Of a stretch of 64,000 nucleotides of DNA, positions 1 to 37,000 are shown piece by piece (position 1 is the first letter of the stretch; each line of letters begins with the position of its first letter). Under the pieces are notes generated by a model. That model did no database searches and was not told the DNA's origin. It was given only the letters and a program-made list of their open reading frames with translations. The DNA is from Ostrinia nubilalis (taxonomy: Eukaryota; Arthropoda; Insecta; Lepidoptera; Crambidae), in assembly GCF_963855985.1 (NCBI RefSeq), contig NC_087114.1:397001-461000 (forward strand), read 5' to 3'. The position numbers and the translations under genes were made by a program.

Positions 1-991
1 CTAGCCGGACACTACACTAGCCGGACACTGCACTAGCCGGACACTGCACTAGCCGGACACTGCACTAGCCGGACACTGCACTAGCCGGACACTACACTAG
101 CCGGACACTGCACTAGCCGGACACTACACTAGCCGGACACTACACTAGCCGGACACTCCACTAGCCGGACACTACACTAGCCGGACACTAGACTAGCCGG
201 ACACTGCACTAGCCGGACACTACACTAGCCGGACACTACACTAGCCGGACACTACACTAGCCGGACACTGCACTAGCCGGACACTACACTAGCCGGACAC
301 TGCACTAGCCGGACACCACACTAGCCGGACACTAGACTAGCCGGACACTGCACTAGCCGGACACTACACTAGCCGGACACTACACTAGCCGGACACTACA
401 CTAGCCGGACACTACACTAGCCGGACACTGCACTAGCCGGACACTACACTAGCCGGACACTGCACTAGCCGGACACTACACTAGCCGGACACTGCACTAG
501 CCGGACACTACACTAGCCGGACACTACACTAGCCGGACACTACACTAGCCGGACACTGCACTAGCCGGACACTGCACTAGCCGGACACTGCACTAGCCGG
601 ACACTACACTAGCCGGACACTACACTAGCCGGACACTACACTAGCCGGACACTACACTAGCCGGACACTACACTTGCCGGACACTATCCTAGCCGGACAC
701 TACACTAGCCGGACACTGCACTAGCCGGACACTACACTAGCCGGACACTGCACTAGCCGGACACTGCACTAGCCGGACACTGCACTAGCCGGACACTGCA
801 CTAGCCGGACACTACACTAGCCGGACACTGCACTAGCCGGACACTACACTAGCCGGACACTGCACTAGCCGGACACTACACTAGCCGGACACTGCACTAG
901 CCGGACACTACACTAGCCGGACACTGCACTAGCCGGACACTACACTAGCCGGACACTGCACTAGCCGGACACTACACTAGCCGGACACTAG
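1..991. repeat. 16-bp satellite array
   Basis: About 62 head-to-tail copies of a 16-bp unit, CTAGCCGGACACTGCA, fill the left edge and continue out of the window. The variable positions are almost all in the last four bases (TGCA, TACA, TAGA, TCCA, CACA). Period and phase are kept across the array, with only a couple of substitutions elsewhere (near 673-690). It ends exactly where the first exon begins, so it lies in the preceding intron. Each unit carries CTAG, so the last unit's TAG can act as the exon's splice acceptor. Confidence 0.97.
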
Positions 992-1086
992 ACACGAGGC
1001 GCGCTGCAGGCCACGCAGTACTTCAGCCTGTCGGCCCGCGGGGAACTGCGAGACGAGGAGGCCTGCGCCGAGCTTCAGCATTCCAG
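992..1086 (+). CDS. exon 1 in window: lectin segment (GELR...ACAEL)
   Basis: Open in phase 0 from 992 and ending CAT TCC AG before gtgatt (phase 2). It reads [20 protein letters not shown], then [11 protein letters not shown]. The spacing of Q-x-F, the aromatic-S-L strand and the C-A-E-L cysteine matches the alpha/beta subdomain junction of GalNAc-transferase lectins. The acceptor is either the TAG that closes the satellite (989-991) or the CAG at 1007-1009. The longer start keeps the G-A-L-Q part of the motif, so I prefer it. Confidence 0.8.
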
Positions 1087-4000
1087 GTGATTGGGGATAA
1101 CTAGGGACAAGTCCTCTTCTAGATATGACACTTGGGGACAATGCCCCTTCCAGGTGATGGGGGATGAGATTGTTGGGGACAAGTCCCCTTCTAGGTATAT
1201 GACACTTGGGTACAAGGCCCCTTCTAGATATGATACTGATGGGGACAAATCCCCTTCTAGGTATGACACTTGGGGACAAATCCCCTTCTAGGTATGACTC
1301 TTGGAGACAAGTCTCATTCTGGGTATGACACTTGGGGACAAATCCCCTTCTAGGTATGACTCTTGGAGACAAGTCTCATTCTGGGTATGACACTTGGGGA
1401 CGAGTCCCCTTTTAGGTGTCGTTAATTTCAGCCGAAAGACGTCCACTGCTGGACAATAGCCTCCCCCAAGGATTTTCACAAAGACCGATCCTGCGCCGCC
1501 CGCATCCAGGCGCCTCCCGCTACCTTCACCAAATCGTCGGTGTACCTAGTGGGAGGCTTGCCCATGGTACGTCTTCCGGCCCCTTTTCTGTATTTATTTA
1601 TTGATTTTAACTATAACATACACGTCCCCATCTAGATTTAACACTGTTGGATACAGTGTTCATCAAAGTATGGCACTGTAATTAGATACACGTTCCTTAC
1701 CAGGTATGACGCTGTGGGATACAAGTCCCCTTCTAGATATGACACTGATGGGGACAAATCCCCTTCTAGGTACGACACTGTTCGGAACAAATCCCCTTCT
1801 AGGTATGACACTTTTGGGGACAAATCCCCTTCTAGATACGACACTGTTGGGGACAAGTCCCCTTCTAGGTACGACACTGTTGGGGACAAGTCCCCTTCTA
1901 ATTAAGGCACTAATACTGGATGTAGGCTAAATAATATTTTTGTTACAGAGATACTCCGATTGAAAAAGGGCGACGTGTGCTGATGTCAAACTGTCACGGA
2001 AAACTTAGAGGACAGGTATGAACACAAAAAATATATTTAAGATCTATTATAATTCCCCTACCCCAAAGCCGTGTGGTGATGGCAGAGTAGAATACATTTG
2101 TCACCAACTCCTACTCTTCCCACGGGTGTGTCGTAAGAGGCGACTTAGGGACTACACATTAAACAGAGAACGGGCAGCAGCGCTCTCTAAAAAAACTCAA
2201 TCTTTTAAACTGCGATCTCCAACCCGCCTGCCAAGCGTGGAGATTATGGCAAAACCCTCCACTATAGTGGAGGAGGCTCATAGTCCAGCAGTGGACTGTA
2301 AAGGGCTGTTGATGATGAAACCTTTATATTTTTTTAAGCAATTCTGAGATATGTTATGATTTTAAAGCTACTTAAAACAAATAATTGAAAAATAACTCGG
2401 TTTTTAAGGCTACAGGAAAGTGTGCTTAAAGAAATTCTGTCTAAATAATTGGTTAATGGAGTCAAGTATCCAATTTAAACCCATCCAGTGTCTAAGTAGC
2501 TCAGTTGGAAGAGCAGTCGCCCGGCAAGCGAAAGGTCGTGGGTTCGATTCCCGCCTATTTTTTCGAGTTGTTTATTTAAAATTCTTTTTTTTTATCCACA
2601 ACTAGGAAGCTCTTGGCCTGTATCTCACCTGATGGTAAGTGACGATCAGGCCGAAGGTGGAAGCGAGCTTCACCCGGAATCCTCAACCACGGAGGAACTG
2701 GCTATCTTACCTCTAACTGCCGGAACACAACAATGTTCTTAACATTGTTGTAACTCAGAATAGTGTCTGAGTTTCTTGCGCTGCTTCTTCTCAGCACTGG
2801 CCCATTTATTGTCCCGAAGCAGTGGTAGGGTTAATACTGGGACGTGTAAAAGTGTTTTTTTAAAGCCTACTTACAGAAATAAATGAGTTTTACTGAGAGT
2901 TTTTACTGAGTTTTACTGTTATGGCGACAGACTTAGGTAAGCCCCTTCCCATTGTTCTAGAAATGGCGCTACCTTCCCTCCGGTCAGCTACAGCACGCCG
3001 CTACGGGCCTGTGTCTGGACGCGGGTTATGACGCAGGTGCTGACGTCATGGCGCGCCCGTGCGGGTCGAACGCGCCCGCGCAGAGATGGAAGATCGACTA
3101 TAATCAGGACAACGACTTCAGGCTAGATAGTGAGTATAATAACCTGTATTTAACTATAACCAAATGTGTTTAAAAAATATAAACGCAAAAATATCGTTCC
3201 AAAATGTCGGCAAAAACAATCGAACATCGAATTAAAAATGAAAAATAAATTGCATAAAAACAAATTAATATCGCGAAAACTCATTAGAATTGCAAAAATG
3301 GAATATCGTAAAACAAAAGAACATCGACATGACATGAGAAGGAGGGTCTAATGGAAGGTTGTTGAGTGCTAAAACTGTATTTAACTACCTATAATTGATA
3401 ACCAAATGATGTGCGTAAAAAAAAGAAACGTAATAATATCGTTCCAAAATGTCGCCAAAAAACAATCGAACATCGAATTAAACATGAAAAAAATTAGCAT
3501 AAAAAAACAAATTACTATCGCGAAAACTCAATCGAATCGCTAAAATGGAATATCGTAAAACAAAAGAGCATAGATTTGACAAAAAACGGCGGTTCTATAG
3601 TGCTCGCTACAGCACGCCGCTACGGGCCTATGTCTGGACGCGGGCTATGACGCGGGCGCTGACGTCATGGCGCGCCCGTGCGGGTCGAACGCGCCCGCGC
3701 AGAGATGGAAGATCGACTATAACCAGGACAACGACTTCAGGCTAGACAGTGAGTCACTACTATTACCTTTATCGGCCTTTACCACGCCTCTAAAGTAAAC
3801 TATAAAACCGAAAAACTGTACCTCAAAGTTAAACAAATGCAAAACTAAATGACACCACAAAGAAAGAAAAGTAAAAATGAGAGATCGATTTAAAATGTCA
3901 CCAAAAACAATCGAAGATCGTATTATAAATGAAAATAATGAGCAAAAGATCGATGTAAAATGTCGCCAAAAAACAAACGAACATCGAACTACGAATGAAA

Positions 4001-7000
4001 ATTATTAGCTTCAAAAACAAATGAATGTCGCGAAAACTCATTCACATTGCTAAAATGGAATATCGTAAAAAACAAATGAACGTCGAGTAAACTCATTCAA
4101 ATCGCTAAAATGGAATGTCGTAAAACAAAAGAGCATCGATCTGACAAAAGGAGAAAGGTTTTTAGCGATCGCTACAGCACGCCGCTACGGGCCTGTGTTT
4201 GGACGCGGGTTATGACGCAGGCGCTGACGTCATGGCGCGCCCGTGCGGGTCCAACGCGCCCGCGCAAAGATGGAAGATCGATTATAACCAGGACAACGAC
4301 TTCAGGCTAGACAGTGAGTCACTACTATTAACTTTATCAGCTTTTATACAGCCTCTAAAACACACTAAGCCATAAAAACTGCATCTTTTTGCCAAATAAT
4401 GACGTCACATCACAAAGAAAGAAAATGAAAATAAAAAGACTGTTTTAAAAAGTCACCAAAAAGAATGATAAAAACAAACGAACATCTAATTATGAATGAA
4501 GAGAATTAGCTTCAAAAACAAATGAATGTCGGGAAACGAAAATGGAATAGCGAAAACCAAAAGACCGTCGACAAAACAAAAGAAAGCGAATAATAATAAA
4601 TAGTGTCAAAAACAAATGAATATCGCGAAAACTCATTTACTTTGCTAAAATGGAATATCGTAAAACAAAAGACCATCGATCTGACAAAAGAAGAAAGGTA
4701 TTTAGCGATCGCTACAGCACGCCGCTACGGGCCTGTGTCTCGACGCAGGTTATGACGCAGGCGCTGACGTCACGGCGCGCCCACTCGGGTCGAACGCGCC
4801 CGCGTAGAGATGGAAGATTGACTATAACCAGGACAACGACTTCAGGCTAGACAGTGAGTAATTATTGCTTTTAACCATGTCTCTAAACTAGACTATAAAA
4901 GCAAAAAACTGTATCTCAAAGCTAAATGACCATGACACCATAAAGAAAAGCAAAAATAAAAGATCGATGTAAAATGTCGCAAAGAAACAAATGAACATCG
5001 AATTAAAAATTACAAAAATTAGCAAAAAAAACAAAAGAATATCGCGAAAACTCATACACATTGCTAAAATGGAATATCGTGAAACAAAAGACCATCGATC
5101 TGACAAAAGGAGAAAGGTCTTTAGCGATCGCTACAGCACGTCGCTACGGGCCTACGTCTGGACACGAGCTATGACGCGGGCGCTGACACCTTAAAGAAAG
5201 AAAAGTAAAAATGAGAAATGGATTTAAAATGTCGCAAAAAAAAAACAAAGGAACATCGAAAATAATTAAGAATGAAAAGATTTTGTATCAAAAACAAATG
5301 AGTGTCATGAAAACCAACCAACCAACTGCAAAAAATGGAAAGACCTGAAACAAAACACCATCGATCTGACAAAAGAAGAAAGGTCTTTAGCGCTCGCTAC
5401 AGCACGCCGCTACGGGCCTATGTCTTAACGCGGGCTATGACGCAGGCGCTGACGTCATGGCGCGCCCGTGCGGGTCCAACGCGCCCGCGCAGAAGATCGA
5501 CTATAACCAGGACAACGACTTCAGGCTAGATAGTGAGTAATATTCCACCATCATCACGCCTTTAAAAAAAAATGTATTTATTGCCTTCGAACCATTAAAC
5601 ATAGGTACAGAACTGGCTTTAAACTGAACTATAAAACCAAAAAACTGTATTTCAAAGTTAAACAAATGCAAAACTAAATAACACCACAAAGAAAGAAAAA
5701 GAAAAATTTAAGATCGATGTAAAATGTCGCCAAAAACAAATGAAAATAATGAGCTTCAAAAACAAATGAATGCCATAAAAACTCATTAAAATTGCGAAAA
5801 TGGAATGTCGTAAAACAAAAGAACATCGACATGACAAAAGAAGGCGGGTCTATAAACTTCTGCTAAACTAAATGACTTCACTAAGAAAGAAAAGGAAAAA
5901 TAAAAGATCGATTTGAAATGTCGCCAAAAAACAATCGAACATCGAATTAAACATGAAAAAAATTAGCGTCAAAAACAAATGAATGTCGCGTAAACTCATT
6001 CAAATCGCTAAAATAGAATATCGTAAAACAAAAGACCGTCGAGAAAACAAAAGAAAGCGAATAAAGAACAATTGCTCCTCCTGTATAGCCAGGATCTACA
6101 GCTTGGTCTCCAATGAATATTGTGCCTCCAATGAATAAGTGAAGTGAGTGGTCCCGTAGGATAGCTAACTGTCTTAGAATCCGCAATGAATTTAATCAGA
6201 AGATATATTCGTTCGAAATATAATATCGACTTGCTAATCAAATCATTAGTAATAACCGCGAATTCAGTGCAAGAACACTACTTTTCGATTTACCAGAAGC
6301 AAATGGAAGATTTGGTCTACATTCCCCACACTGGCCAAATGACTTACCTGCTGTGCCCATATTTCTCCCTTAGTCGCCTCTTACTACCTTTAGGATTTTA
6401 TTAATATAATTCCTTTATTTTCGCAGAAGACGAGGAGCCAAGCGAACAGGAACAAAGGTTGAGCAAGCTTCGAAGGCAAAGGTGTGTGTACAAAATTCAA
6501 AATGTATAACTCAACATTTTACAGCATAAGTTCAGTCGTGGTTCAGTAGTCAATAATAATCGAAAATTAAAAGAGCTTATAGTGTTAGTATGTATTATTA
6601 GAAGAGTTGTGTTGCGTAATATTCATTATGAACTTAGTCTGATCTGCGAGCACATAGAATTTTGTCCAATGACCCCAAGCTACCCATCCTTATCGCTCGC
6701 GCGTAATTATATTGCTGTCGCGACTGTGCGACGGGCGGCCGCAGTGAGTGTGCGAGCGCGATAGCAACATAATTACGCGCGAGCGATAAGGATGGGTAGC
6801 TTGGGTCATTGAACAAAATTCTACGTGCTCGCAGACCGGACTTTACCTACCTTATTGGTGATAAACCTTACCCGTTTTGAACTCTATTTAAAGTTGTTAT
6901 AATTCACGAAGGCGAGTTAGCTTTACATGTGTAGTGGCTCGCTACTGTTCGTTTTTTTTTTTCAAAAGTTTTAATAGACATTACACTATCGTTATGTGCC

Positions 7001-10000
7001 TTCGTGAGTTGCAAGAACTAACCTCAATAAACCAAATAAATAAGATACTCCTCAACCATCATCAACTAAAACGAACACAAATTCCAGACGGATATCTCGC
7101 TCCCTCCTCTCATACACCGAAGAAACCCCCACCGACATAGAAACCAACACAACCATCCGCCGCCACACGCACAAGAAACGCCGCGGGAAGAAACACGGCA
7201 AGAAGCGCGCCCGCAAGAAACATACTAAGAACAAGTTCATTCTGAAACTCGTCAGAACGCTGGCCAATCATAGCGAGGAGCATTTAGAAGTGGATATACA
7301 TTGCAGTCATAAGAAGTTATACCCGAATAACAGTTTCGTGAGGGATCTGGTCACTGTATTGAACGAGAAAGACATTAAGGTGAGACTTAGTTTTAAGAAT
7401 CGACATAAAAACCTTCTTTCTTTTTTGTTGGTTCGTTGACTAACCAGAACAAGTTCATTCTGAAACTCGTCAGAACGTTGGCCAACCATAGCGAGGAGGA
7501 GCATCTAGTAAAATGGCCTTTAAGTTTCAAGAAATTATCGGGAGAAAATTCCACTTGAGCTTGTGTTCGCCTTTTGTGCTATCAATTTCTATTATGTACA
7601 GTCACGGAATGAAAAGGTTCGTCAGTTTTCAAATTGATTCCTTCAACGAATCGCGAGCACATATTACCTTTTGAAACTATGTTACAGAATAATCTCGAGT
7701 TAGAGAAAATAATCTTTAACTGTTCGTAAGTAAAGTTCAAAATTATTCAGATCAAAGTTGTTTGACGATTTATCTTGTCAAGAAGATTATCATGATTGAT
7801 TGAAACCTTCTTGTTGGTTCAACCTGCCATTATTATTTCTATTAAATAAAAAAAACTATTGTCAATTGGTCAATGTCATCACTGCATTGCACTGACGGGA
7901 TAGAAAAATAAACAAGCAAAACCTTATTCGTTAGCAAACGTCATATTTATTTAAATGTTAGCAGTACTGTTTCTTGCACTGTTATGTTGGCAGGTTTGAC
8001 TCTTACAGTACCTAGTGCAAGCGAAAACCGACACTAAGGTGACGAACCTTTTCATTCCGCGACTGTACAATAAGTCTTTAAATAAATAAACCTATAAGTA
8101 TAGCACTTAACTGAATTGGCATTGACATGTTATGATGATACGACAGAGCATACAAATCTGAAGCATGTCTGTAGTGTACCTAAATGTGCACGCACTATTC
8201 ACTGGCTCACACCAAGCGTCTCACTGCGGCACGTCCGTCCTCGCCGGCGTCTGCCGTACGACTGACTCGTTGCACTCATAACGATGTCACGTGACTGCCT
8301 TTCACTTGTGTGCCTGAGACAGCGTATTGTATCTAGTACCAGGCCTCCGTCACTCGCCTATGCCGGCCGAGATAATTACCTACAGCGCGCGACAACTTCA
8401 AGTTGCAAATCAGTCATGGCCGCCACGCGCCTGTAAGCACACGCGTATTTCTATACACGCTCGGTCGATCATAGTCGCAATCAAGGTTTATTGTTCCAAC
8501 AGCACTGTTATTCTTCTTTAATGGAAAATCGTAATATTTAGGAATAATAATTAACTGTAGTGATTTAAATAATTTAAAAAAAACTACACTTTTTAAATAA
8601 TTTTGAAATACTTATGACAAAAAACTGTAGCAAAAATTATTTTAGCTAATAAAAACATTAACTTAAATCTAATTCTACTGGCCTATAATAGGTACTTTAG
8701 AGATGGTACGATTATACAAACACCACTAGATTAAAGTTTACCAATCGTAAATACAATAATTGCTTCTTAAAATTAAGTTTTTATTTATTTTACTTTACTT
8801 ATACAACCCTGACGCTTGAGCTGTGAGGTAAATCAATTCTGTACACAAAAAAATTGCGCTCTTGTGAGCGTAGTAGTAAGGTGCGATTTCGAATGCACCA
8901 TGTGCGTTGGATATTTTGCATTATTATTATTACCGTTAAAATGTCGGCATCTGATCCTACACAAAGGAGTGCAATTTCTGTTGCTACTATTATGTATTCT
9001 GTGCTAGTACGTAGATACAAACACTACAACTTCTGAAGTCTTGCTGACGTTTGACCGTCACAATAACACCGCTCCCATATCTCAGACACTGAATCATGTA
9101 TGTGCTAGAGCTATAGTGGCATTTGGCCAATGTTTGAGTGATCTATCTATCATTAACTTTAGAATATATTTATTCTATTTAATTAAAAAAAACAGAGTAC
9201 CAATCACGATAGTTGCATGCACCACGTAGTTTCTCCGTTGAACAACTCGTGCTTATGGAATCCATTATTAATTTACAGCTGCGCCCATGCATACCTTTTT
9301 GAATATATTTATTTAAAAAAAATCAGAGTAATAACCAGCAGAATATCAACATCACAACTCCTTTATTTTAACCGAAGTGTCAATCATATTCCGATGTACA
9401 AAACACAAGATTGTCCGTGGTCAGTAGCAATGAGGTTTCTAAAGCCCGGTCTGTGAGCACGTACAATTTTGTCCAATGACCTCAAGCTACCCATCCTTAT
9501 CGCTCGCGCGTAATTATGTTGCTGTCGCGACTGTGCGACGGCCGCCCGCAGTGTGTGCGAGTCATTGGACAAAATTCTATGTGCTCGCAGACCAGACTAT
9601 ACCAACAATTAAATTTGATTTATTGACCTCCTGTAGGTGATCAACAACGGGCGCGTGTTCGAGCGCAACAAGGTGACGGAGATGAAGGACGAGCGGCGCG
9701 AGCGCGGCGCAGTCAAGGTGCTACACAAGCTGGACCTCGCCGAGCCCACGCCGCCGCCTCCCGCGCAGGTAATTATCACGTCATCATCATTTCGGCCATA
9801 GGACCAGGCCAGTTCATCTCCGCGAGTTTACATCGAAAACAAAACACGCACGATGGCCCACCTACAGGATACTATTCGACAAGGCCTCACATACGAGCGA
9901 ACGTTGACTCACGCACGCGTATTCTTGTGTATGATGGAAGAAAATAAAGAAAATGGTGTACTAAATACTGTGCAGTATTTAACTGCCTAAATAATAATAA

Positions 10001-13000: not shown

Positions 13001-16000
13001 GACATGTCATCCCTCTCGCATCATTATCTTACTGCTGTACTCGGTTAAGCGCGATTGTGATTGCATTTCATTATAGGAAATCTAGAAAAATCTATTACTT
13101 CGGGGAACTGAGCTGTTGTTCCATAGTACTAGGGCCGATCATCTTGAATTTCTAACTCATATTTTTATCCATTAAATAAATCGGTTCTAAAAATTATAAA
13201 TAACTTGATTGACAAAATCGAACTGCCTAAGGCGAGAATTGATCCCAGGACCTTACGCAGGGCGATTGCTCTTCCAACTAAGCTACTTAGACACTGGATG
13301 AACCCGTTGAAATTTTCAAGTGTTACACGCTGTAAGGCCTCAGCCTCGAACTTAGCGGGCAGCGGGGCGGCGGCGGCGGCGGCGCGGGCAACGCAGACCC
13401 GTTCTCGAAACCAGCGGGCAGCTCGCGCGGCGCTTTAGCGGCGAAGTGTTCGGGGTTGTGTTGTCGAGATATTTGTTTTTATTCGCGAACGAAATGTCTG
13501 AACAACGGCGACAATTTTATTTCGATTCAAATTTATTCCTTACGCTCGATTTATTGTGGGCAAAAGAAGGAGTGCGCTGCCCGCTCGTTGCCCGCTCCCG
13601 CGCCGCTGTTTTCGAGGACCGGTCTATTTGATTTTACGCATAAGATCCTGCCGCTCCCGCCCCGCCGCCGCTCCCGCGCCGCTGCCCGCTAAGTTCGAGG
13701 CTGAGGCCTTACGGTTAAAAAGCCTTCAGAGAGTAAATAGTTATCCGCCTGCAGCCCACCAAGCGGCACCGCAGCAAGAAGCACAAGCACGCACGTATCG
13801 AGCCGCTGCCCGACACACCAGCACCACCCGCCGTCTCCAAGAAGATCATCATCGAGGACTTCGTCGAGGTCACCGCCGCGCCCGCCAACGACGCGCCCGC
13901 CGTGAGTAGCCTGAACTAAATACTTTTTAGGGTTCCGTAGCCAAATGGCAAAAAACGGAACCCTTATAGATTCGTCATGTCTGTCTGTCTGTCCGTCCGT
14001 ATGTCACAGCCATTTTTTTTCCGAAACTATAAGAGCTATACTGTTGAAACTTGGTAAGTAGATGTATTCTGTGAACCGCATTAAGATTTTGATGCAAAAA
14101 TAAAAAAATAATAATAAATATTGGGGGCTCCCCATACTTAGAACTGAAACTCAAAAATTTTTTTTTCGTCAAACACATACGTTGGGGTATCTATAGATAG
14201 GTCTTCAAAAATGATATCGAGGTTTCTAAAATACTTTTTTTCTAAACCGAATAGTTTGCGTGACAGACGCTTCCAAAGTGGAAAAAAGTTGGTCCCCCCC
14301 CCCCCCCTCTAACTTCTAAAATAAGAAAATGAAAAATCTAAAAAAAAACAATGTGATGTACATAAAATTGTTTTGAACGAGATCTAGTAAGTAGTTTTTT
14401 TTTTAATACCTCGTAAATCGTAAACCGCTTTTACCGCGTATTCTTTCATACAAATAACTTAAATTAAAAAAAAATAATTTTAATTTCATAAATCAATGGT
14501 ACGGAACCCTTTGTGCGTGAGTCCGACACGCACTTGGCCGGTTTTTTTCTTCTTTTCGTGTCAACAACAAACCTACACAGCGTCAGCCCAAAACTCCGCC
14601 ACAAGAGTGGCGTTGTCAGTAGCACTCATCAAATCCTCCTGAGTGCAGTTGCTTGGGCACTCAGGGCACGACATCAGGTGCTTCATCGACTAAATACTGC
14701 TCAATAAAGACTATGTTATTACTAACTAGCGGCCGCCCGCGACTTCTTACGCGTGGATCCCGTTTTGCCCCCTTAGGGGTGGAGTTTCGTAAAATCCTTC
14801 TTAGCGGATACCTACGTCATAACATCTACCTGCATGCCTTTCAGCCCGATCCATCCAGTGGTTTGGGCTGTGCGTTGATAGATCACTATGTCAATCAGTC
14901 AGTCACCTTTGAGTTATATTTAGAAGATATCCGACCACACTTTCCCACCACTGCAACTCCTGTATAGCCAGGATCTACAGCTTGGTCTCCAATAAAACCC
15001 AACCTTCACTGGTTGGTTGGTCCCAGATCATTGCTGTCTTGGAATATACTAAAGACTATAAGTTAGTATTGCAAGATGTCCTGAACTAAAATACTGCATA
15101 TTAAAGGATTTGATTGCTAGCTCAATTTCATGTCTCATGTAGTCCATTGTCCACGAGCTGCACTAAGTTATAAGTAACTATAACATGATCTATAGCCTGA
15201 CCAGGAACATAAAAACCCTCGCCATGTTGCGGAAAACCAATGGTACTAATTTCTTTTAATGGAAACAGTAACTGAAAACTTCATTGACATGTCACCTTGC
15301 ATGTCAGTCTATTGCTGTCAAAGTGTAAACAAACTTTATTTTAAATGTGCGCAATTAATGCAATGCAATAAATGATTTGATTTGATTGATTTTGTGAATG
15401 AAATTGCTAAAATCTTTTTATAGTCGTGAAAGAAAAGTGGTTCACAATGTGTTAAAGTATTTGTCGAAGAGAAATACTAAGGGTTCGGACAATATTTTCA
15501 TTGAATAATGTTTCCAACAGTTTCCAACAAAGGTTGTCAAATTAACTGACATGTTTATCGTATAGTACAGTCCACTATGAAAATTAGCTGTGGTTTGTTT
15601 CAACTACCTATTTTAAAGTTTTTTGTCACTTTCTAAGTGTTGAATTTTATGGAATTGGGAAAGAAGTACCGAGTTTGAAGCGTTCATGAGCAGACATTGC
15701 AGTTGAATATTCAAGTTCTGAATTTGATTATTGATGAATAATAAAATAAATCCTACTAGCTCGATTGATGGTTTCATTTAATTTATTTAAACCAGGTTAC
15801 CTATAATAATATTTTTTCGTTAATTTATGAAAATATCAAATTAGCCCGTAATCCTGAATCCTGATACATAAAGTTAGCCTATTAATTTAACACAGGTACG
15901 ACTGTACTCAGTGTTGCACTATCAAATGCAATTGACGCGCCTCTATGCCAGGGTTTTTATGTTCCTGGTCAGGCTATAAATTCGATTTAATGAAGACATA

Positions 16001-19000
16001 GAAGATACAGGACATTACAGGATGTCCCAAAACTCGACATTAAGACGACCGTGACAAGCTTTGAGAAAAAATTAAGATACCTAGCGCCTGTCACCGGCGA
16101 TCCTTATAATTTGCTGAACAATTTTGACTGAGTTTCTTGCGCTGCTTCTTCTCAGCACTGGCCCATTTATTGTCCCGTGTCCCGAGACGTGTAAAAGTGT
16201 TTTTAAAAGCCTACTTGCAAAAATAAATGAGTTTTATGAATTGTGAACCACAAACACATTGTGTAATATTTTTTCACACATTTCCAGCGCGCTCAGAAGC
16301 GTAAGCGCAAGCGTATGCGCGCCACCAGCACCACAGCGCCGCCCGCGCCCGTCAGCGAACTCAACGCACTCGGTGACGTCAACGAAATTGCTGAGAGCGA
16401 CGCGGCCGACAGAGACACATTATTGAAGTTACTAGGAGAGAAGACTGTTGCGGGGGAGAGAGACGACGACAGGTGAGAGCAGTGCAGACAGAGCGAGCGT
16501 AGTGACGTCACCAACTGGCTCAGAGCGACGCAGTTGACCGACACGCCTTGCTGAAGTTGCTGGGAGAGAAGACTATCGCGAGGGAGAGAGACGAAGACAG
16601 GTGAGAGCAGTACAGACAGAGCGAGCGCAGTGACGTCACTAACAGCACCACAGCGCCGCCCGCGCCCGCCGCCGAACTCAACGCACTCGGTGACGTCAAC
16701 GAAATTGCTGAGAGCGACGCGGCTGATAGAGACGCCTTGCTGAAGTTACTAGGAGAGAAGACTATTGCGGGGGAGAGGGACGACGACAGGTGAGAGGAAG
16801 GGAGACAGAACTAGCCCAGTTAATGTGTGTGACGTCAACGAAGTTGTTGAGAGCGAGGCAGCTGATGAGGCGCCTTACTGAAGTTACTAGGAGAGAAGAC
16901 TGTTGCGGGGGAGAGAGACGACGACAGGTGAGAGCAGTACAGACAGAGCGAGCGCAGTGACGTCACTAACAGCACCACAGCGCCGCCCGCGCCCGTCAGC
17001 GAACTCAACGCACTCGGTGACGTCAATGAGATTGCTGAGAGCGATGCCGCTGATAGAGACGCCTTATTGAAGTTACTAGGAGAGAAGACTATCGCGGGGG
17101 AGAGAGACGACGACAGGTGTGAGCAGTACAGACATATGGTAAGTGAAACAAGTTTAGGGCTTCAAGCAAAGAGAAAGAACTAGCTGAAAACACGCAACTG
17201 AGAGAGACGCCTTATTGAAGCTACTAGGAGAGAAGACTTGCGGAGGAGAGGGACGACGACAGGTGAGAGCAGTGCAGACAGAGCGAGCGCAGTGACGTCA
17301 CTAACAGCACCACAGCGCCGCCCGCGACCGCCGCCGAACTCAACGCACTCGGTGACGTCAACGAGATTGCTGAGAGCGACGCGGCTGATAGAGACGCCTT
17401 ACTGAAGTTACTGGGAGAGAAAACTGTTGCGGGAGAGAGAGACGAAGACAGGTGAGAGCAGTGTAGACAAATAGTAAGTGAAACAAGTTTAGGGCTTCAA
17501 GCAAAGAGAAAGAACTAGCTGAAAACACGCAACTGAGAGAGACACCTTGCTGAAGTTGCTAGGAGAAAATAATATTGCTAGAGAGAGAGACGACGACAGG
17601 TGAGAGCAGTGCAGACATATAACTAGCCCAGTGACGTCACTAACTGGCTTAGAAGCGTAATAATAATAATAATAAAAATTTTAATAATAAAAATTTTTTA
17701 TTCACCATAACAGAAGTATGTACACAGTGTTAATAGAACTTAATACATAAGTATTTTAGTACAGTAGGTACAAGTCGGTAGAATGGCATGCCCCTGTCCT
17801 CTAAACTAGGATATATCCTGTATCTTAGAGAACAGTGATTCCTCTGGAGACATTGTAATTACTTAAATTTAATTTTACATGTGGCTTTTATGTTATGCTT
17901 GCTGCTCACTATGTATGTGTGTGTGTGTGTGTGTCTGTGTGTGTGTGTGTGTGTGTGTGTATGTGGCTGTGGCTGTGTGTGTGTGTGTGTGTGGATGTGT
18001 GTGTGTCTGTGTGTGTGTGTGTGTCTGAGTCAAAGTGGAAGTGGGTTTGGGAATGTGTTATTGTTGTGTTGTATTTATGTTAAAAGATTTTCAGTCTCAT
18101 TGTAATTTAGAGCAAGTAATAGTTCCTTTACTACTCGTTTGACCTCGTGTGTGGTCAGAGAATAAATGTTCGTAGAGTTATTAATTGTATTATACAATTT
18201 AGAGCTTAAGGCTTTGTGCTGTCTTTTTGCCCACGACGTACGGCACCGAATCAGGGGGCACGCTCTCATTGCTCCCTTTCGCCGTGCTGCGATCAGGCGG
18301 TTGAACGGCAGAGTCCGGTGTCGGCGCAGAACCAAACGGAGAATAGCAAGTTGCCGCACTGTGAGAACTTTACAATCGGCGTACAGTTCTTTGGTTGGGA
18401 ACATACGCTTCTTCCGGGTCATGACCTTGAGGACAGCACGTTGAGCACGTTCAAGTTTTATCAGTGCAGTTTTGTCAGCACCGCCCCATACAGGAACACA
18501 GTATGAGATGACTGACTGGCATAATCCAAGGTAGACGGTGAAAAGTGTGCTTCGGTCAGCTGAATTGCGAAGATTTTTAAAAATGTATATAAGTTTCCGA
18601 ACTCTTTCCGTAGTTTTTTCAATTTGAACATGCCAGTCAAGTCCCGCGTCTACATGGACCCCCAGATACTTCATACTACTAACCAATTCTAGTGGTTTAC
18701 ATTGGCAAATGCCAGGGGAGTTTTCGTGACAAGTGTGGACAATCACGTGCTCGGAATCAGGGTCAAGGTTTTTAGATTTTGATATGTCAAATCGAACAAG
18801 CCGTGTTTTATCTAAGTTAAGGGTAAGTAGGTTAGTGGATAACCACTTCATCACAATCTTTATAGCATTTACCGCATTGATTTTGGCGTTCACCCAGCTA
18901 TCACCATGAACCAAGAGTGCAGTGTCGTCTGCATGTAAGTAACATTACCACAGCGCCGCCCGCGCCCGTCAGCGAACTCAACGCACTCGGTGACGTCAAC

Positions 19001-22000
19001 CAGATTGCTGAGAGCGACGCGGCTGATAGAGACTCCTTATTGAAGTTACTAGGAGAGAAGACCATCGCGGGGGAGAGAGACGACGACAGGTGAGAGCAGT
19101 GCAGACATACAGCGGGCCCAGTGACGTCACTTTACTAGCTGAGAGCGACGCAGCTGATAGAGACGCCTTGCTGAAGTTGTTAGGAGAGAAAACTGTTGCG
19201 GGGGAGAGGGACGACGACAGGTGAGAGCAATGCAGACATAGAACTAGCCCAGTTAATGTGTGTGACGTCGACGAAGTTGTTGAGAGCGAAACAGCTGATG
19301 AGGCGCCTTGCTGTAGTTACTAGGAGAGAAGAATGTCACGGGGGAGAGAGACGACAACAGATGAGAGCAGTGCAGACATAGAGCGAGCGCAGTGACGTCA
19401 CTTTACTAGCTGAGAGCGACGCCGCTGATAGAGACGCCTTGCTGAAGTTACTAGGAGAGAAGACTGTTGCGGGGGAGAGAGACGACGACAGGTGAGAGCA
19501 GTGCAGACATATAGTAAGGGTGAGTTGCACCATTTAACTTTAACTTTGACAAACGTCAAAAATCTGTCAAACTCCATACAAAAAGCACCGGTTATCGTCA
19601 TAGCTACCGTTAAAATTAGGTGGTGTAACTCAGCCTAAGTGAAACAAGTTTAGGGCTTCGAGCAAAGAGAAAGAACTGGCTGAAAACACGCAACTGAGAG
19701 AGACGCCTTATTAAAGCTACTAGGAGAGAAGACCATCGCGGGGAAGAGAGACGACGACAGGTGAGAGTAGTGCAGACATAAAACTAGCCCAGTGACGTCA
19801 CTAACAGCACCACAGCGCCGCCCGCGCCCGTCAGCGAACTCAACGCACTCGGTGACGTCAACGAGATTGCTGAGAGCGACGCGGCTGATAGAGACGCCTT
19901 GCTGAAGTTACTAGGAGAGAAGACTGTTGCGGGGGAGAGAGACGACGACAGGTGAGAGCAGTGCAGACATATAGTAAGGGTGAGTTGCACCATTTAACTT
20001 TAACTTTGACAAACGTCAAAAATCTGTCAAACTCCATACAAAAAGCACCGGTTATCGTCATAGCTACCGTTAAAATTAGGTGGTGCAACTCAGCCTAAGT
20101 GAAACAAGTTTAGGGCTTCGAGCAAAGAGAAAGAACTAGCTGAAAACACGCAACTGAGAGAGACGCCTTATTAAAGCTACTAGGAGAGAAGACTTGCGGA
20201 GGAGAGGGACGACGACAGGTGAGAGCAGTGCAGACTGAGCGAGCGTAGTGACGTCACTAACAGCACCACAGCGCCGCCCGCGCCCGCCGGCGAACTCAAC
20301 GCACTCGGTGACGTCAACGAGATTGCTGAGAGCGACGCGGCTGATAGAGACGCCTTACTGAAGTTACTAGGAGAGAAGACTGTCGCGGGGGAGAGAGATG
20401 ACGACAGGTGAGAGCAGTACACACATATAGTAAGGGTGAGTTGCACCATTTACCTTTAACTTTGACAAACGTCAAAAATCTGTCAAACTCCATACAAAAA
20501 TCACCGGTTATCGTCATAGCTACCGTTAAAATTAGGTGGTGCAACTCAGCCTCAGTGAAACAAGTTTAGGGCTTCGAGCAAAGAGATAGAACTAGCTAAA
20601 AACACGCAACTGAGAGAGACGCCTTATTGAAGTTGCGGGGGAGAGAGATGAAGACAGGTGAAAGAAGAGGAGACTAAACATTTTTTTTCTAGAATAATTG
20701 CACATTTTATCGCCTTTTTAGGGTTCCGTAGCCAAATGGCAAAAAACGGAACCCTTATTAACACTAAAGTGACTGAGCACTGTGCTTATCTATCAGGTCT
20801 CATATTCAGATGTCAGTATTGTACGCCGTTAAATCAACGTTAAATTATTGCGGGACCTGCCTAATGTGATTGCAAAACGAAACTATCAAAGCATTGTCGA
20901 ATTTTTTTTTGTTACTTTATTTTTTTTTTTTATTAGGACAACCAACAAGACAAACACGCATACATGAAATTACTATAACTAAAAGTGCTTAAAACTAAGT
21001 GCTGTCTTAATTAAAGAATACTTTAGAATAGAATATAATTCTCAGGTCATCAGTCTATCAAACATCAACAAATCATCACCATCTGTCCTCAGAATGCAGA
21101 AAGTATCCTCCGACGAAGACAGCCTAAAAGTGGAGCCTGCTTCGATAGAGGAGGCTCCCATGCTGGCGAGCGGCGAGCCCAAGCGGGACGGAGACACGCA
21201 GGACAACGGGGTAGAGCGGGACAGGGCTAGCTACGAGCTGTGGCCTATGGGTGAGTGGCATTGCACCTACTTTTTTTTTCTTGGTTAGCACCAAATTTGC
21301 CACTTTTTAATTATTGTCTGTGTTATGTTACTGTTCTTTCTTTTTTTTTTCTCTTTGTTTTTTGTTATCGTGTTACTTCTGTTTTTGTTTTAAAAATGCG
21401 TTGTGTTTACATGACATTACATGTCCCTGCTTCGCTCACCCCTTTTGAGAGATATCGAACTCGAGTCGATGTCTGTCCGAAGGGATGCGCGAAGCCACAA
21501 CAAGGGCTCTCGCGGAAGACCAGTTTCTTGACATGCCCTCACGAGCATGTCAGGATAAATGCTGAGCGGGAGCCTATTGACACAGTGGCCCTATTTAACT
21601 GTATTCGTTTTGTGTTATTATTGTATATGTTTGTGCTTACTGTGTTAATAAAATCTATTTCTTTCTTCTTTCTTTCTACTTTAGTTACATCATCATCATT
21701 TCAGCCACAGGACGTCCACTCCCCCAATAGGCTAGTTTCCTAAAAAAATTTTTTTAGTCCGTCATGTTTAATATCAAAAAATATTGGACACGTATATTTT
21801 TATTTGTCAATCTAACAAATATTTATATAGTTATGGTGCGTTGAAGTTCCGCACGACGTCACAACGTGCGGCACTTTTATGCAAGCATTGACGTCACGGG
21901 CCTCTTCTTATGAACTTTGGCGCGCTTTATCTCTTTAAATTTTCATTATTTTGAAAAAGTGAAAAATACGTGTAGAGTATTTTTTGATAAGTTAACTGAC

Positions 22001-31000: not shown

Positions 31001-34000
31001 TTGATTGTGGTAAACAAACATTAAACCTACTTTTTTAATTTAATTTAATTAGATTGTTTTGTTCTTTTCCTGTTAAAAGAATTATGATACAGATCCTCGG
31101 GAGGGAGGCGCAGGCAGCTGTGACACAGTTTATACTAGTACGGCTGCCGACGTAACCTAACCCAATAGTTCACTTGAATTGTAATCTCTAAATAGGTTAA
31201 GACTTACTGTAATTTTGGAGCGAATAAATAACTTTATTATTATTATATAACCAATTATCCTGTCTGTGTGCAGGCGAGTCGCGGTTCCGCAGTGAGAACG
31301 GTAGCGTGCGCCGCAACGCTTGCAAGCACAAGCACCACAACCACGACCTGGATGAACAGGTCAGTCTATTTATTATTTATTTCTCTCTAAGTCTAGCTTA
31401 GGGAGCATCGATGTATTTTAAATCTTATTGTAATACACCAAGGTCGCAAATAGTCTATGCTTTACCGAAATTCACGTGCGAAAATCTGCAAAATTCAGTA
31501 ACTTATAATTAAAAAAACTGTAAAAATACCACATTAAGATTAGATCAAGACCACTAGCGCCATGCTGCGGTTCCAACATGCATTACTAAATCTCTTCACG
31601 AAGTGGTTATAACGCTCACCATTAGATGGCGGTAGGTTAAAAGCTGCATCGCGGTTTTAAAGTAAGACGGAGTTATTCCATCCGTCGATGTGTTCGTATT
31701 TTTTTTTTATTATATCACGCCTGTATTGCGCATTATAGTACACTTTTTTGCTACACATAGGCCTTCTCATTTTGGACTCCTTCACTATGTTTGTCAGCCA
31801 ATAAAAGTTACCCCTTCACAAAAACGTTATATTATCTTATACTAGAGGCCGCCCGCGACTTCGTACGCGTTTTACACCCTTAGGCGTTGAATTTTACAAA
31901 ATCCCGTCTTAGTGAGCATCTACGTTCTAAAAGGAACCCCCATGCAAAATTTGAGACTCCTAGTAGAGATGAGACGTATTTACTAGAACAGATCCACACA
32001 CTAGGTATTTTACAGTACTAGGCGGCACCTATTCCATTTTAAAAAATACTTGATCCACCTAGTATTTTATAAATTACACGATTTCCGACCCTACCCTGAA
32101 AGTAATAGAGGTTATTATTGCGTAATCCGTAGTCGTGTATTACGCGCACCTAGTATTTCTCGCTAAGCTTATGTGCGAACGTAGAGATTCACTCCGTCTC
32201 TGTCTAACCAAACAAATTTGAGCGCGACGAAGCAAACGCACACAAACGTAGTCAAACCATATTCATGTAAATAAGAAAAAAGTATGTAAATATTTTTATG
32301 AAATTGATATCTTTTAAATACGCCAACTTTTAAGTTGACAGTCCAAAGCCTGTTGAAGTATGAAGGGAGGAATTATATTATTATTCAATTTCAAATTGCA
32401 TTATTCATACTACGGTTGTATCTTTTCAAAGAAAATTGTATTTTAAAGTCATATTACTTGGATTAGTCCGCACTAGTCGCGTCAAGTATGCTAAATTACT
32501 ACGTACTAGGTGGAACAGGTATTTGGATCGAGTATTAATAAATACTTGGAATAGGTGCACCTAGTATCAAATTTACCTAGTATAACCCATCTCTAACTCC
32601 TAGCACTTGTAGTTTTTGAGATTTCGTGATGAGTGAGTGAGTCAGTCAGTCTTGACCTTTATAGATTGGTATATTTTACTGTGAAAACTAAAAAAAAGTG
32701 ATAAATCTAGTTGCCGGCGCGCGCGCAGCTGACGTCATACTCGAACGCGAACGAGCGCGCGCTGCAGCAGCAGGCGCAGGACGAGATCGAGATGCGAGCG
32801 GCCGAAACTGATACTGGTGAGTTCTCCCGTTTCTTATTTTGAACCAACTATCCAGATCAGATGATCTTCAGGATAGTTAATTGGACTTACGCCCGAATTC
32901 ACAAACGATGCTTTTTTTATCCACAAAGAGGAAGCTCTTGGCTTGCTTAAATGCAGCAGCAAATCGGATGCACAGCGTTGAATAGAGCTCTGTGATTCGT
33001 GTGTCACCCTGTGCGTCCACGCACACTGTGAGACCTCATAGTAATGTTTGTGAATACGGGTGTTAATTCTTATAGTCTTTTGTGTTCAAGATCATTTTGC
33101 TAGTTCTATAGCTCGCTCGCTCTCGGTTCGCTGTTCGCATTTATGGGGCTGTCTCGCGAGAAATTCGGGCGAGAGTTCTCGGATTAGATTTTGACGAGAG
33201 TGTACAGCTAAGGCATAAGGCTAATATACAGAGCGATTTTGCTGCAAAATCGCCCTGTATATTAGCAAAAATCGCCCTGTATATGTGCAAAATGTTTGCA
33301 CACAGTTGTAATTTTTTTAAGGAGCGACTTAGAATAAGTAACTTATTCGATTTACGTTAAGAAAACAAAACTTTTTTTTTTCATATCAAATTATTTCAAT
33401 TCGCTGTGCGCGGTTTCAAAATTGGCACACGTGGATAATTTATTTCGTTGATAGAAAAATATGTACACACAGATAACTGCAAAGCTTAATAGACATTATA
33501 GTGCGCGAAAATAAGCCCTATCACTTAAAACTTAAGATATGGGCACCTGCGAATTGTATCTTCAAAATTTTTTTTTCGAAAATTACCCCGATTAAAAATA
33601 AATATTAAAATTTCTTGGCAACTGTTTGCAAAATCACCCTGTAGCTAAGTATTTTTGTGCTATTGAAATGCACCAGCAATTGGAGCTAGTGGAGTACTCC
33701 AATTTCAGTGCGGTGATTTAGTTTGTAATTTCATGGTTGTAATGTGTTGGAGCGTTTACGCGAAGCGCGGCGTTTCAAGGGGCATCATTGGAAATGATTC
33801 GCACGCGGCGTTTTTTAATAGTTTTCAAATGTTTATAGCAAAACAATATCAATGAATTATATATCGTTTCAAAGTAAATATTTTAAAGAAGATGATATTT
33901 TATTATATTAAGCTATTTTTATGTTGAATTAAAGAAGAATAATGGTGTAAAACTCACTTTGATTTTTGGGTATTTCGCGTTCTTTGAATTTGTGATTTCT

Positions 34001-37000
34001 TATTGTAAAATCCTTAAATCTAAGAATTTTCTCAATGAACTATTTGCCTAAGGACTTATGCTATAGGATATAAAATTTTTTTATATCGTTTTCACAGTAT
34101 TTTTATAAAAATTTCAGCTTGTAAACTGACGCTAAAGTGGAAATTTGAAAACCTGTGTGGACTTATCTTGATAGAATTCTTAAATACTATACTAATCGAA
34201 ATATTTTCTCAACTAACTATTTAGACGACGAAATTGCCTAATTATTTATGCCTATAACATATTTGTAATGTAACTGGTTAATGATTGTAACGGGTTGAAA
34301 AAGTACTGTTTTTGCGCCAAACGGCGTAAACGCTCTTAAGTATGGCTAAGTATTGAACTGTTTTGTCCTCGCGCAGCCGACGAAGCATCTCCTAGGTCCC
34401 GCCCGCGCCCGACGGCGGCGCCGACGCTGCCGGTGAAGGTGGTGATGCGCAGCAACCTCACCTTCAACCTCGGCGACGAGTTCTTCGCCTGGAGGCGCCG
34501 CCCCGGCCACGCCAGGTCAGTACTATTTACAGGTTACATAGGGTAAGGGTGGCAGACGGAGAACGGGCAGCAGCGCTCTCCGAAAAACATCAATCTTTTA
34601 AACTGCGATCTCCAACCCGCCTGCCAAGCGTGGGGATTATGGCAAAACCCTCCACTATAGTGGAGGAGGCTCATAGTCCAGCTGTGGACTGTAAAGGGCT
34701 GTTGATGATGATGATGATGATCACGTATGACGGAGGAGAGGGACGAAGCGCATCTTCTACTCTGAACTTGAGGAAGGTAAGCGGAAACATGGCGGTCAAC
34801 TGAGGTACAAAGATGTGCAGAAGCGGTACATGAAAATATGCGACATTGAGCCCTCCCAGTTGAAAGCCTTGGAAGGTTTGGCAGCACAACGTCCAGAATG
34901 GCGGGAGATTGTGAAATCAAAATCAAAATCAAAAATATTTATTCAGTTTAGACCACAAGTGGCACTTATGAACGTCAATAGAAAATAATAAAAAAAGAAA
35001 AGGTAGCCCTTATGGGGCACTTTACATGTCTCCTTATCTTTTGGGCCCGAAGAGGCGGGTCCGCGAGTTCGAGGATCAGCGTACACACGGCCACACTGTT
35101 AACTATCCATTTCCATTTTTGCTCTCGCTCTCATCAAATGGTGATTCTTTGCGAAAGAACGAGACGACATGACAGGCAATGGATAGTTAAAGAGTATGTT
35201 ATTACTAACTAGCGGCCGCCCGCGACTTCGTACGCGTGGATCCCGTTTTACCCCCTTAGGGGTGGAGTTTCGTAAAATCCTTTCTTAGCGGATGCCTACG
35301 TCTTATCATCTACCTGCATGCCAAATTTCAGCCCGATCCGTCCAGTGGTTTGGGCTGTGCTTTGATAGAAAGAACACTATGTCAGTCAGTCACCTTTGAG
35401 TATATTTATAGATAGACCGCGCCAATAAACTTCATTTGATCTACAATCCCCACGGCCAGACAAGTTGGGGAAGAAAGTACGTTACAAGGAACAATTCGTT
35501 CGTTCCAGCCACTGCTGGATGGATTTCCACGATTGGTTCTGCGCTGCCCGCGTCCAGGATCGAAGGAATACTTGAAAATTAAATATAGACAAACTAAATG
35601 TTGTCTTACTAAAAGGCTGCCACAGCTGCACACAGTTATGTAGTTTAAAATAAGGCTGGCTGACTTATAGACATAAGGCGTACTTGAGTACGGCAGTGTC
35701 CAGAACAGATTACGAATGACAACGGTGACTTCTTACATACTGTTCCACTAAAAGCTCCTTAGGAACCTATCAGATTTTTAGTGGGTAAGCTCTGCCCTTC
35801 TGATAGGGAGAGCAAAAAAGGGAGCATGGTCAGCAACCAACAAGACCGGTGGTGACCCGTTAAAATCATCACCATCATCATCATTTTCAGCCATAGGGGA
35901 GGTGAGCCCAAAGCGGGTATACCGCCCAAAGCGGGTAGCCTTCGTTATTCACGTATACAAGCCGATTGAGCACATTTGTGCGTTTCGTGGCAACGCCCGA
36001 ACTCGTTTCGACACGAATCAGTTTGGCCGAAACATCGGCGACGCGCGGCGGAGCTCCGAGACGCGAATGTTTTTATTTGCCTGTTTCACAAAAAAATATC
36101 AAGATATGTGAATATGAATTACTTCATTCTGTTTTAAGTTGTGTTGAATCTGTTACTTGTGTATTATTCTGCATTAAAACAACGTTTGAGCAACCTTTCT
36201 GATAAAGATTTTGAGATTATTTTACAAAACGTGAAAAAGTATCTTTTGGGCAAAGCGGGTATGGGTAAAACGGGTAACCGCTTCTTATTCTTATTCTAAT
36301 TATATATGGATACGAAAATGGTAGTTTCATAGGTAATTTTTGTTGTTTTGGCTGAACAAGAATCTGAATTGATAGAAGTCTTGTTTCACATGGATAATCT
36401 TTTTTTTGGTCTGACAAAATTGGATTTTTATCTCACGTATATCAATATGCAGAGAGCAATAGAATTCTGCACCCTTTCAAAAGTCAAACTGCTGGAGAAG
36501 ATTGGTGTAAAGCCTTTGAAAAGAGATATCCCCAACTAACATTAAGAAAGCCAAAGCCAACGTCAGTAACTTGCCTTGCCCATTCTCGACCCGTTTTGCC
36601 CCAGGGGCCATACCCGCTTTGGGCACCCCCTGCGGGCAAACCGGGTAAAATGACTGACTGATTAGTTCTTAAATTTTTGAAGTGATTTGTTACAAGAGAA
36701 GTGATTTTTAGTTTTTATTACAAAGTTTAATACATACTTGTACGAATTTATTAAAAATATATAACTTTGCAACTGCAGTAACGTCTTTTTTATTGACACA
36801 AACCTTAAGTTACCCGTTTTGGGCCCATCTCCCCTAGGACGTCGATTTCCACAATGGCCGCTTGGAGGCGGCCTGCATTCAGCGCCTTCCTGCTACCTTT
36901 ATCAGGTCGTCAGTCCACCTTGTGGGTGGACCGTTAAAATTCCATCTAAATAAATACTTTTTACAGCGAAATTCTCAATATAAGGTCAATTTTCATAATA

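Follow-up and report, generated by a model that had tools for sequence, protein, structure and literature searches.

A GALNT gene with an exon multiplied inside its own intron

We analyzed a 64,000-nucleotide stretch of chromosome 27 of Ostrinia nubilalis (contig NC_087114.1, positions 397,001 to 461,000; hereafter the window), in which one exon is followed by an array of full and truncated copies of itself. Judged by its sequence, the gene concerned encodes a lepidopteran polypeptide GalNAc-transferase (GALNT) whose tail is long. Matches to the O. furnacalis ortholog (protein model P0008) place it at contig positions 369,743-434,113. Both the GT-A glycosyltransferase family PF00535 and the ricin-B lectin family PF00652 are listed for P0008, which also has a long basic tail, and the window's lectin exon reaches a PF00652 score of 29.9 (cut-off 29). 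A DxH motif (FLDSHCE) is found in a catalytic exon of the gene, and an N-terminal membrane helix at residues 5-31 of the AlphaFold model of P0008, where the predicted local distance difference test score (pLDDT) is 55-82; both are features of the GALNT family. The model was built from 28 sequences, including the O. nubilalis protein model P0007, and has a mean pLDDT of 47.8. We used it only for the contrast between the lectin blocks (68-89) and the tail (26-43), from which the tail holding the 48-residue unit encoded by the array is probably disordered. A query with the lectin part plus tail returned at least 51 proteins among the 7,990 scored candidates sharing most words, 50 of them with lepidopteran names. 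A search with P0008 (42 of 109 candidates scored) listed 45 matches, of which the 9 away from the GALNT locus are without ladders of copies.

An earlier note on this DNA had described the exon ending in GERDDD, its exon 8, as amplified about 16-fold in place, with five copies that keep frame. Indeed, 16 copies follow the native exon at 16288-16472 (Table 1). Five of them, each where the note had placed it, are exactly 144 nt long, have AG before and GT after them, and leave the phase-2 frame open. Counting 3' ends, the native exon included, gives 17, of which 7 belong to full units and 10 to truncated ones; broken copies thus prevail over the six full-length copies, as the note had said. The full-length copies are 91-95% identical to the exon over 145-149 nt, a likeness that is not due to chance. 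A whole-genome search with the exon gave at least 16 matches among the best candidates scored, the native exon included, all of them at this locus.

The homology of the copies to the native exon starts at an internal CAG (16326-16328) and continues beyond the donor, and the exon's first 13 codons are missing from the copies. The AG in front of each 144-nt copy is therefore exon sequence at the duplication junction, and the five AG borders together with the common length look like one inherited event rather than five independent ones. When tested against a satellite-type fixed unit, the full units are spaced 317-335 nt apart and later 456 nt, with truncated copies intermixed and the series broken by an insertion. 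The last 100 residues of the 289-aa open reading frame (ORF) in this insertion, the part searched, matched no Pfam family at cut-off. A short dispersed element also recurs in the array: among 40 matches listed, 3 lie there (100, 99 and 97% identity) and 37 elsewhere (92-96%). The element inserted first and was later multiplied along with the array unit.

We scored splice acceptors with a small matrix built from 16 native sites, against a background of 3,813 AGs. The acceptors of the five 144-nt copies rank at the 41st-46th percentile, which bears out the weakness that the earlier note had ascribed to them, and 12 of the 16 native acceptors rank at or above the 93rd. However, two native sites rank as low as the 49th and the 65th percentile, and the acceptor test is therefore suggestive only. 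The donors of the array copies are consensus-like, and an acceptor at 18898, inside the insertion, reaches the 93rd percentile.

The seven full units have a ratio of nonsynonymous to synonymous differences per site (pN/pS) of 0.19, with zero stops and zero insertions or deletions (indels). Their distinct changes are 17 synonymous and 9 nonsynonymous (the column-wise binomial took 17/25), or 14:8 when the native exon is left out (P about 4e-4, neutral binomial, kappa 2). A column recount of changes confined to one full copy gave 10 synonymous and 4 nonsynonymous. In the truncated copies we counted 19 synonymous and 20 nonsynonymous changes, 1 stop and, by eye, at least 3 indel events, still above the neutral synonymous share of about 0.27. 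When the full units are put to the four-gamete test, 18 of the 28 informative pairs of sites fail it, which shows mosaic exchange among the units; because the units exchange sequence, their changes are not independent. The 45-nt linkers in the array differ by 0 to 15.6%.

Table 1. Features of the GALNT gene and the exon array in the window
Feature	Position	Strand	Remarks
End of 16-bp minisatellite (CTAGCCGGACACTACA)	1..990	.	Upstream lectin-exon copies interspersed
3'-part copy of the upstream lectin exon, last of 13	1004..1086	+	Other 12 upstream of the window
Native lectin exon	2961..3129	+	Phase 0 in, 1 out
Five 3'-part copies of lectin exon 2961	3607..5539	+	Starts 3607, 4172, 4712, 5131, 5397
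Native exon	6427..6481	+	
Native exon	7088..7379	+	Ends VLNEKDIK
53-nt copy of part of exon 7088	7446..7498	+	
Native exon	9637..9768	+	
Native exon	13755..13901	+	
Native exon (exon 8 of the earlier note)	16288..16472	+	Ends GERDDD; phase 0 in, 2 out; in P0007 and P0008
Truncated copy (3' part plus donor)	16502..16600	+	
Full 144-nt copy	16646..16789	+	AG/GT, open; used in P0007
Truncated copy	16829..16927	+	1-nt deletion
Full 144-nt copy	16973..17116	+	AG/GT (donor gtgtgag), open; absent from P0007
Truncated copy	17174..17262	+	2-nt deletion
Full 144-nt copy	17308..17451	+	AG/GT, open; used in P0007
Truncated copy	17509..17599	+	
Insertion	17660..18944	-	289-aa ORF 18075-18944, reverse-transcriptase-like by eye; TG microsatellite
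Sixth full-length copy	18946..19089	+	AT replaces AG beside the insertion; P0007 enters via acceptor 18898 in the insert
Truncated copy	19121..19220	+	
Truncated copy	19262..19360	+	1-nt deletion in common with the copy ending 16927; one codon now a stop; AT in place of the GT donor
Truncated copy	19392..19491	+	
Short dispersed element, imperfect inverted ends, MITE-like by eye	19518..19636	.	Repeats at 19978-20096 (99%) and 20434-20552 (97%)
Truncated copy	19670..19760	+	
Full 144-nt copy	19808..19951	+	AG/GT, open; used in P0007
Truncated copy	20130..20218	+	2-nt deletion in common with the copy ending 17262
Full 144-nt copy	20264..20407	+	AG/GT, open; used in P0007
Truncated copy, last of the array	20604..20657	+	Internal deletion
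Native exon	21093..21250	+	
Last native coding exons	32708..37113	+	Matches at 32708-32821, 34373-34543, 37003-37113

Copies of other exons carry the same codon pattern

The array is not isolated: a further five exons are each present locally at 3 to 14 places, with the native one included. By exon, these places number 3 for a catalytic exon at 372 kb of the contig, 4 for an exon at 389 kb, and 14 and 6 for two lectin exons; the DxH catalytic exon has several copies, old and young. In addition, exon 7088 is present at 2 places. Blocks consisting of the 3' part of an exon, its donor and the following intron are found in the array and at four of these exons (those at 372 and 389 kb and both lectin exons). 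The exceptions are a broken B-class copy of the DxH exon, which keeps the 5' part and has lost the 3' end, and the copy of exon 7088, which is an internal piece.

In all six families tested, the full units of the array among them, changes are skewed in the same direction, toward synonymous ones, with single-family P values from 7e-3 down to about 1e-11 (neutral binomial, kappa 2). The catalytic exon at contig 372.3-373.1 kb (window -24652 to -23915) encodes identical 52 residues at its three places, with 19 synonymous and 0 nonsynonymous changes. The upstream lectin exon gives 9:0 over its 14 places and 8:0 among the copies alone (P about 4e-5). Its 13 copies lie together with the minisatellite at contig 392.4-398.1 kb (window -4571 to 1087), and the 16-bp minisatellite unit resembles the sequence right after the lectin exon's own donor. 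The sole frame-compatible AG of these copies lies 23 nt inside the copy, with no in-frame acceptor at the 5' end. They are unlikely to be exons, yet they show zero nonsynonymous changes. Lectin exon 2961 and its two open copies (3607 and 4172) give 10:0, the native version of class B of the DxH exon compared with one copy 12:0 (this copy retains a native-like AG but lacks its 3' end), the 389-kb exon with two copies 5:1, and the copy of exon 7088 2:0 over 50 nt.

These family counts leave out several copies. The remaining copies of lectin exon 2961 have a stop (4712), are cut short (5131) or carry a 6-nt deletion (5397), and including them gives 15 synonymous changes, 8 nonsynonymous changes and 1 stop. 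Also set aside were a 389-kb copy with a stop and, for the DxH exon, a short fragment of class B (6:2) and the copies of class A (3:2 and 2:4). With 7 and 5 mismatches, the spacers offer too little material for a control of codon rhythm.

The DxH exon versions lie upstream of the window (contig C27:374684-382509) and fall by eye into three classes, A, B and C, which recur across Lepidoptera. Two or three versions are held by 7 of 56 proteins, which looks like old alternative exons that annotation would have strung together.

Protein models and genomic setting

The NCBI model P0007 (LOC135084764, 777 aa), which we take from its naming to be an automated prediction rather than evidence of transcripts, contains six units, namely the native exon, 16646, 17308, 18946, 19808 and 20264. 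It skips 16973, and its unit 18946 has a changed start. The O. furnacalis model P0008 has one unit, and a query with the repeat region returned only these two Ostrinia proteins (7,995 candidates scored). We scanned the orthologs for internal repeats with ungapped 25-residue segments, taking the best segment per protein; this replaced self-BLAST, which missed P0007, the positive control. In the scan, 12 of 55 proteins score at least 100, but the present unit is the best segment in P0007 alone, and a search with the unit across the orthologs found more than one strong match only there. The tails of the orthologs P0027, P0034 and P0048 (Phthorimaea, Zerene and Cydia) have tandem repeats unrelated to this unit, and a lectin segment is repeated in Arctia P0011 and Spodoptera litura P0017.

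The O. nubilalis models P0007 and P0047 divide one gene in two, and the start of P0047 is retroelement-like by eye; the annotation at this locus is therefore rough and needs revision. Farther along the window, at 27922-30948, two ORFs of 282 and 725 aa resemble by eye the endonuclease and the reverse transcriptase of a LINE.

Across the 11 bins around the gene, direct duplications within 2.5 kb cover on average 2,198 bp of every 10 kb, compared with 596 in 20 control stretches, 3 of which exceed 1,500 (contig 300 kb has 443). Bins upstream of the gene are also high (2,776 and 3,788), and beyond window position 20,000 the values are 706, 0 and 0, with 1,707 at 50-60 kb. As the high values extend upstream of the gene, part of the explanation lies in a tendency of the region to duplicate locally.

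Origin and maintenance of the copies

We favor recurrent local duplication combined with exchange among the copies, with the functional exon as the selected hub, and give this reading, which leaves room for some splicing-in, a probability of about 0.5. The array arose through repeated tandem duplication of a block running from the CAG at 16326-16328 into the following intron; each such block in the array carries the 3' part of the exon with its donor and leaves the true acceptor behind. A block of this kind would spare the original exon and be nearly silent for splicing, which may explain its survival, although the DxH copies do not fit this scheme. The functional exon would then serve as exchange partner, and nonsynonymous variants would be purged only on passage through it. 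Synonymous variants could spread, so that unusable fragments would retain codon sense until they leave the exchange and decay. The six full-length units would be mainly by-products; if some were spliced in now and then, the probably disordered tail would gain units of 48 residues, which may be tolerated. More tentatively, the partial exons in several introns could form a reservoir that keeps codon sense non-exonically through exchange with the functional exon, shielding the copies and speeding synonymous change in the gene.

The strongest new point is that copies unlikely to be exons retain codon sense, and the coding signature of the array is therefore not to be taken at face value. The earlier note had proposed the dN/dS between intact copies as a check of their use. 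The ratio is low, but the synonymous-only pattern recurs in copies without an in-frame 5' acceptor or a donor, and the bias alone is therefore no proof that array units are spliced in. We accordingly gave up reading the array's low pN/pS as proof that its units are used. The converse statement, that all copies of other exons are unusable, proved too strong as well, given the frame-compatible acceptors at lectin copies 3607-5397 and at both 372-kb copies.

Several observations weigh against our preferred reading. Exchange with the functional exon requires that its synonymous sites change faster than nearby spacers, and the gap is not fully explained: the spacer between the 372-kb copies differs at 3/115 sites and their synonymous difference is about 0.32, a contrast that recent duplication with ordinary mutation does not give either, and matched array pairs show synonymous differences of 0.234 and 0.087 against spacer differences of 5/89 and 7/199 sites. 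The hub gives the direction, if not necessarily the size, of the effect, and its share in the exchange is something that we infer. Over the same 81 nt, full units show 14:4 and truncated copies 19:21 (stop included; Fisher p 0.045), which is what splicing-in would predict; from column 22 on, the contrast has a p value of 0.34. P0007 uses five of the six full-length copies. Each of the five 144-nt copies contains another frame-compatible AG, at the 68th-82nd percentile, which beats the 144-nt AG and would yield shorter units. Both 372-kb copies have a frame-compatible acceptor at the 91st percentile (with a GT donor in one only), and lectin copies 3607-5397 have phase-0 AGs, like their native exon, at the 89th-93rd. 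In view of these fair acceptors, true exon use may underlie part of the pattern.

The alternative that survives best, which we nevertheless consider doubtful, is that the intact copies are real cassette exons kept by purifying selection, with several 48-residue units per transcript, and that the tail is becoming the tandem-repeat protein that the earlier note had suggested. The six-unit model P0007 and the low pN/pS without stop or indel lend this suggestion partial support, and so do the 10:4 ratio of single-copy changes, the consensus-like donors, the predicted disorder of the tail and the presence of unrelated tandem repeats in the tails of some orthologs. It is not upheld by the 144-nt acceptors, which stand at background level with an AG inherited from within the exon, nor by the single unit in O. 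furnacalis and the restriction of the repeat-region matches to these two Ostrinia proteins among the candidates scored. Copies of other exons that have no usable splice sites show the same synonymous bias, which also speaks against it, as does the rough annotation at this locus.

Less probable, and in our view unlikely, is a Dscam-like gene in which the copies of several exons serve as mutually exclusive alternatives, with the array as one such cluster. The DxH classes, present singly or several in a row in orthologs (7 of 56 proteins, in protein models only), would fit, as would the phase-0 AGs of the lectin copies and the switch between two lectin-exon versions described for Drosophila pgant9 (PMC6115407). 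But within the young families the encoded residues hardly differ, if at all, and a swap would gain little in protein; in addition, the 13 upstream lectin copies lack an in-frame 5' acceptor, and the array copies are nearly identical in protein and lack the first 13 codons. Least probable is the plain growth of a young satellite with unselected copies, the codon pattern being an accident of few events: a minisatellite and dispersed elements are present here, and exchange makes changes non-independent so that binomial P values overstate, but agreement among six families is hard to obtain in this way.

Two further sources of the differences were considered and set aside as sole causes. If the copies were snapshots of the native exon taken at different times, nonsynonymous changes would be expected, and the 19:0 and 9:0 counts oppose this at ordinary rates. 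Allelic diversity alone seems to fall short, with a heterozygosity of about 2% by our own arithmetic from k-mers and synonymous differences of up to 0.35. The O. nubilalis genome note gives k-mer completeness values of 66.52% and 61.67%, and of 98.91% for both (PMC11851004).

If the units are spliced in, a tandem-repeat protein has been caught forming, and the protein models of close species differ. If they are not, a low dN/dS between copies, the usual sign of a coding role, can arise in unlikely exons, and gene models like the one with six units may be wrong. Should the exchange that we propose be true, non-coding DNA can look selected as coding. The gene is a natural test of the origin, exchange and decay of exon copies, because several of its exons show different stages.

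Comparison with known systems

Searches for literature on exon duplication in O. nubilalis and, more generally, on tandem exon duplication, conversion between tandem exons and intron gain from exon fragments brought up nothing on this gene among the titles and abstract openings listed, and no paper was found on an insect GalNAc transferase with mutually exclusive exons. Exon duplication in the GALNT family has precedents, but an array of partial copies was not met in the titles and abstract openings searched. The locus shares with tandem exon duplication in Dscam, Snap25 and many other genes the in-gene tandem exon copies of the same phase with the flanking intron copied. It differs in that most blocks here are 5'-truncated, carry a donor without a true acceptor, derive from several exons and encode largely the same residues. 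Drosophila pgant9 is also a GALNT gene with two lectin-exon versions, 8A and 8B, to which we liken the present gene without a claim of orthology; there, two functional versions of opposite charge are described, whereas here we find many near-identical partial copies. In intron gain by tandem duplication of exon sequence that holds a proto-splice site (PMC2891723), a breakpoint in coding sequence likewise makes new donor/acceptor pairs, but the duplicated block turns into an intron, whereas the copies described here sit in an existing one. Finally, no conversion is reported for the arrays of tandem Dscam exons tested in Daphnia (PMC3236188), in contrast to the mosaic units of the GALNT array.

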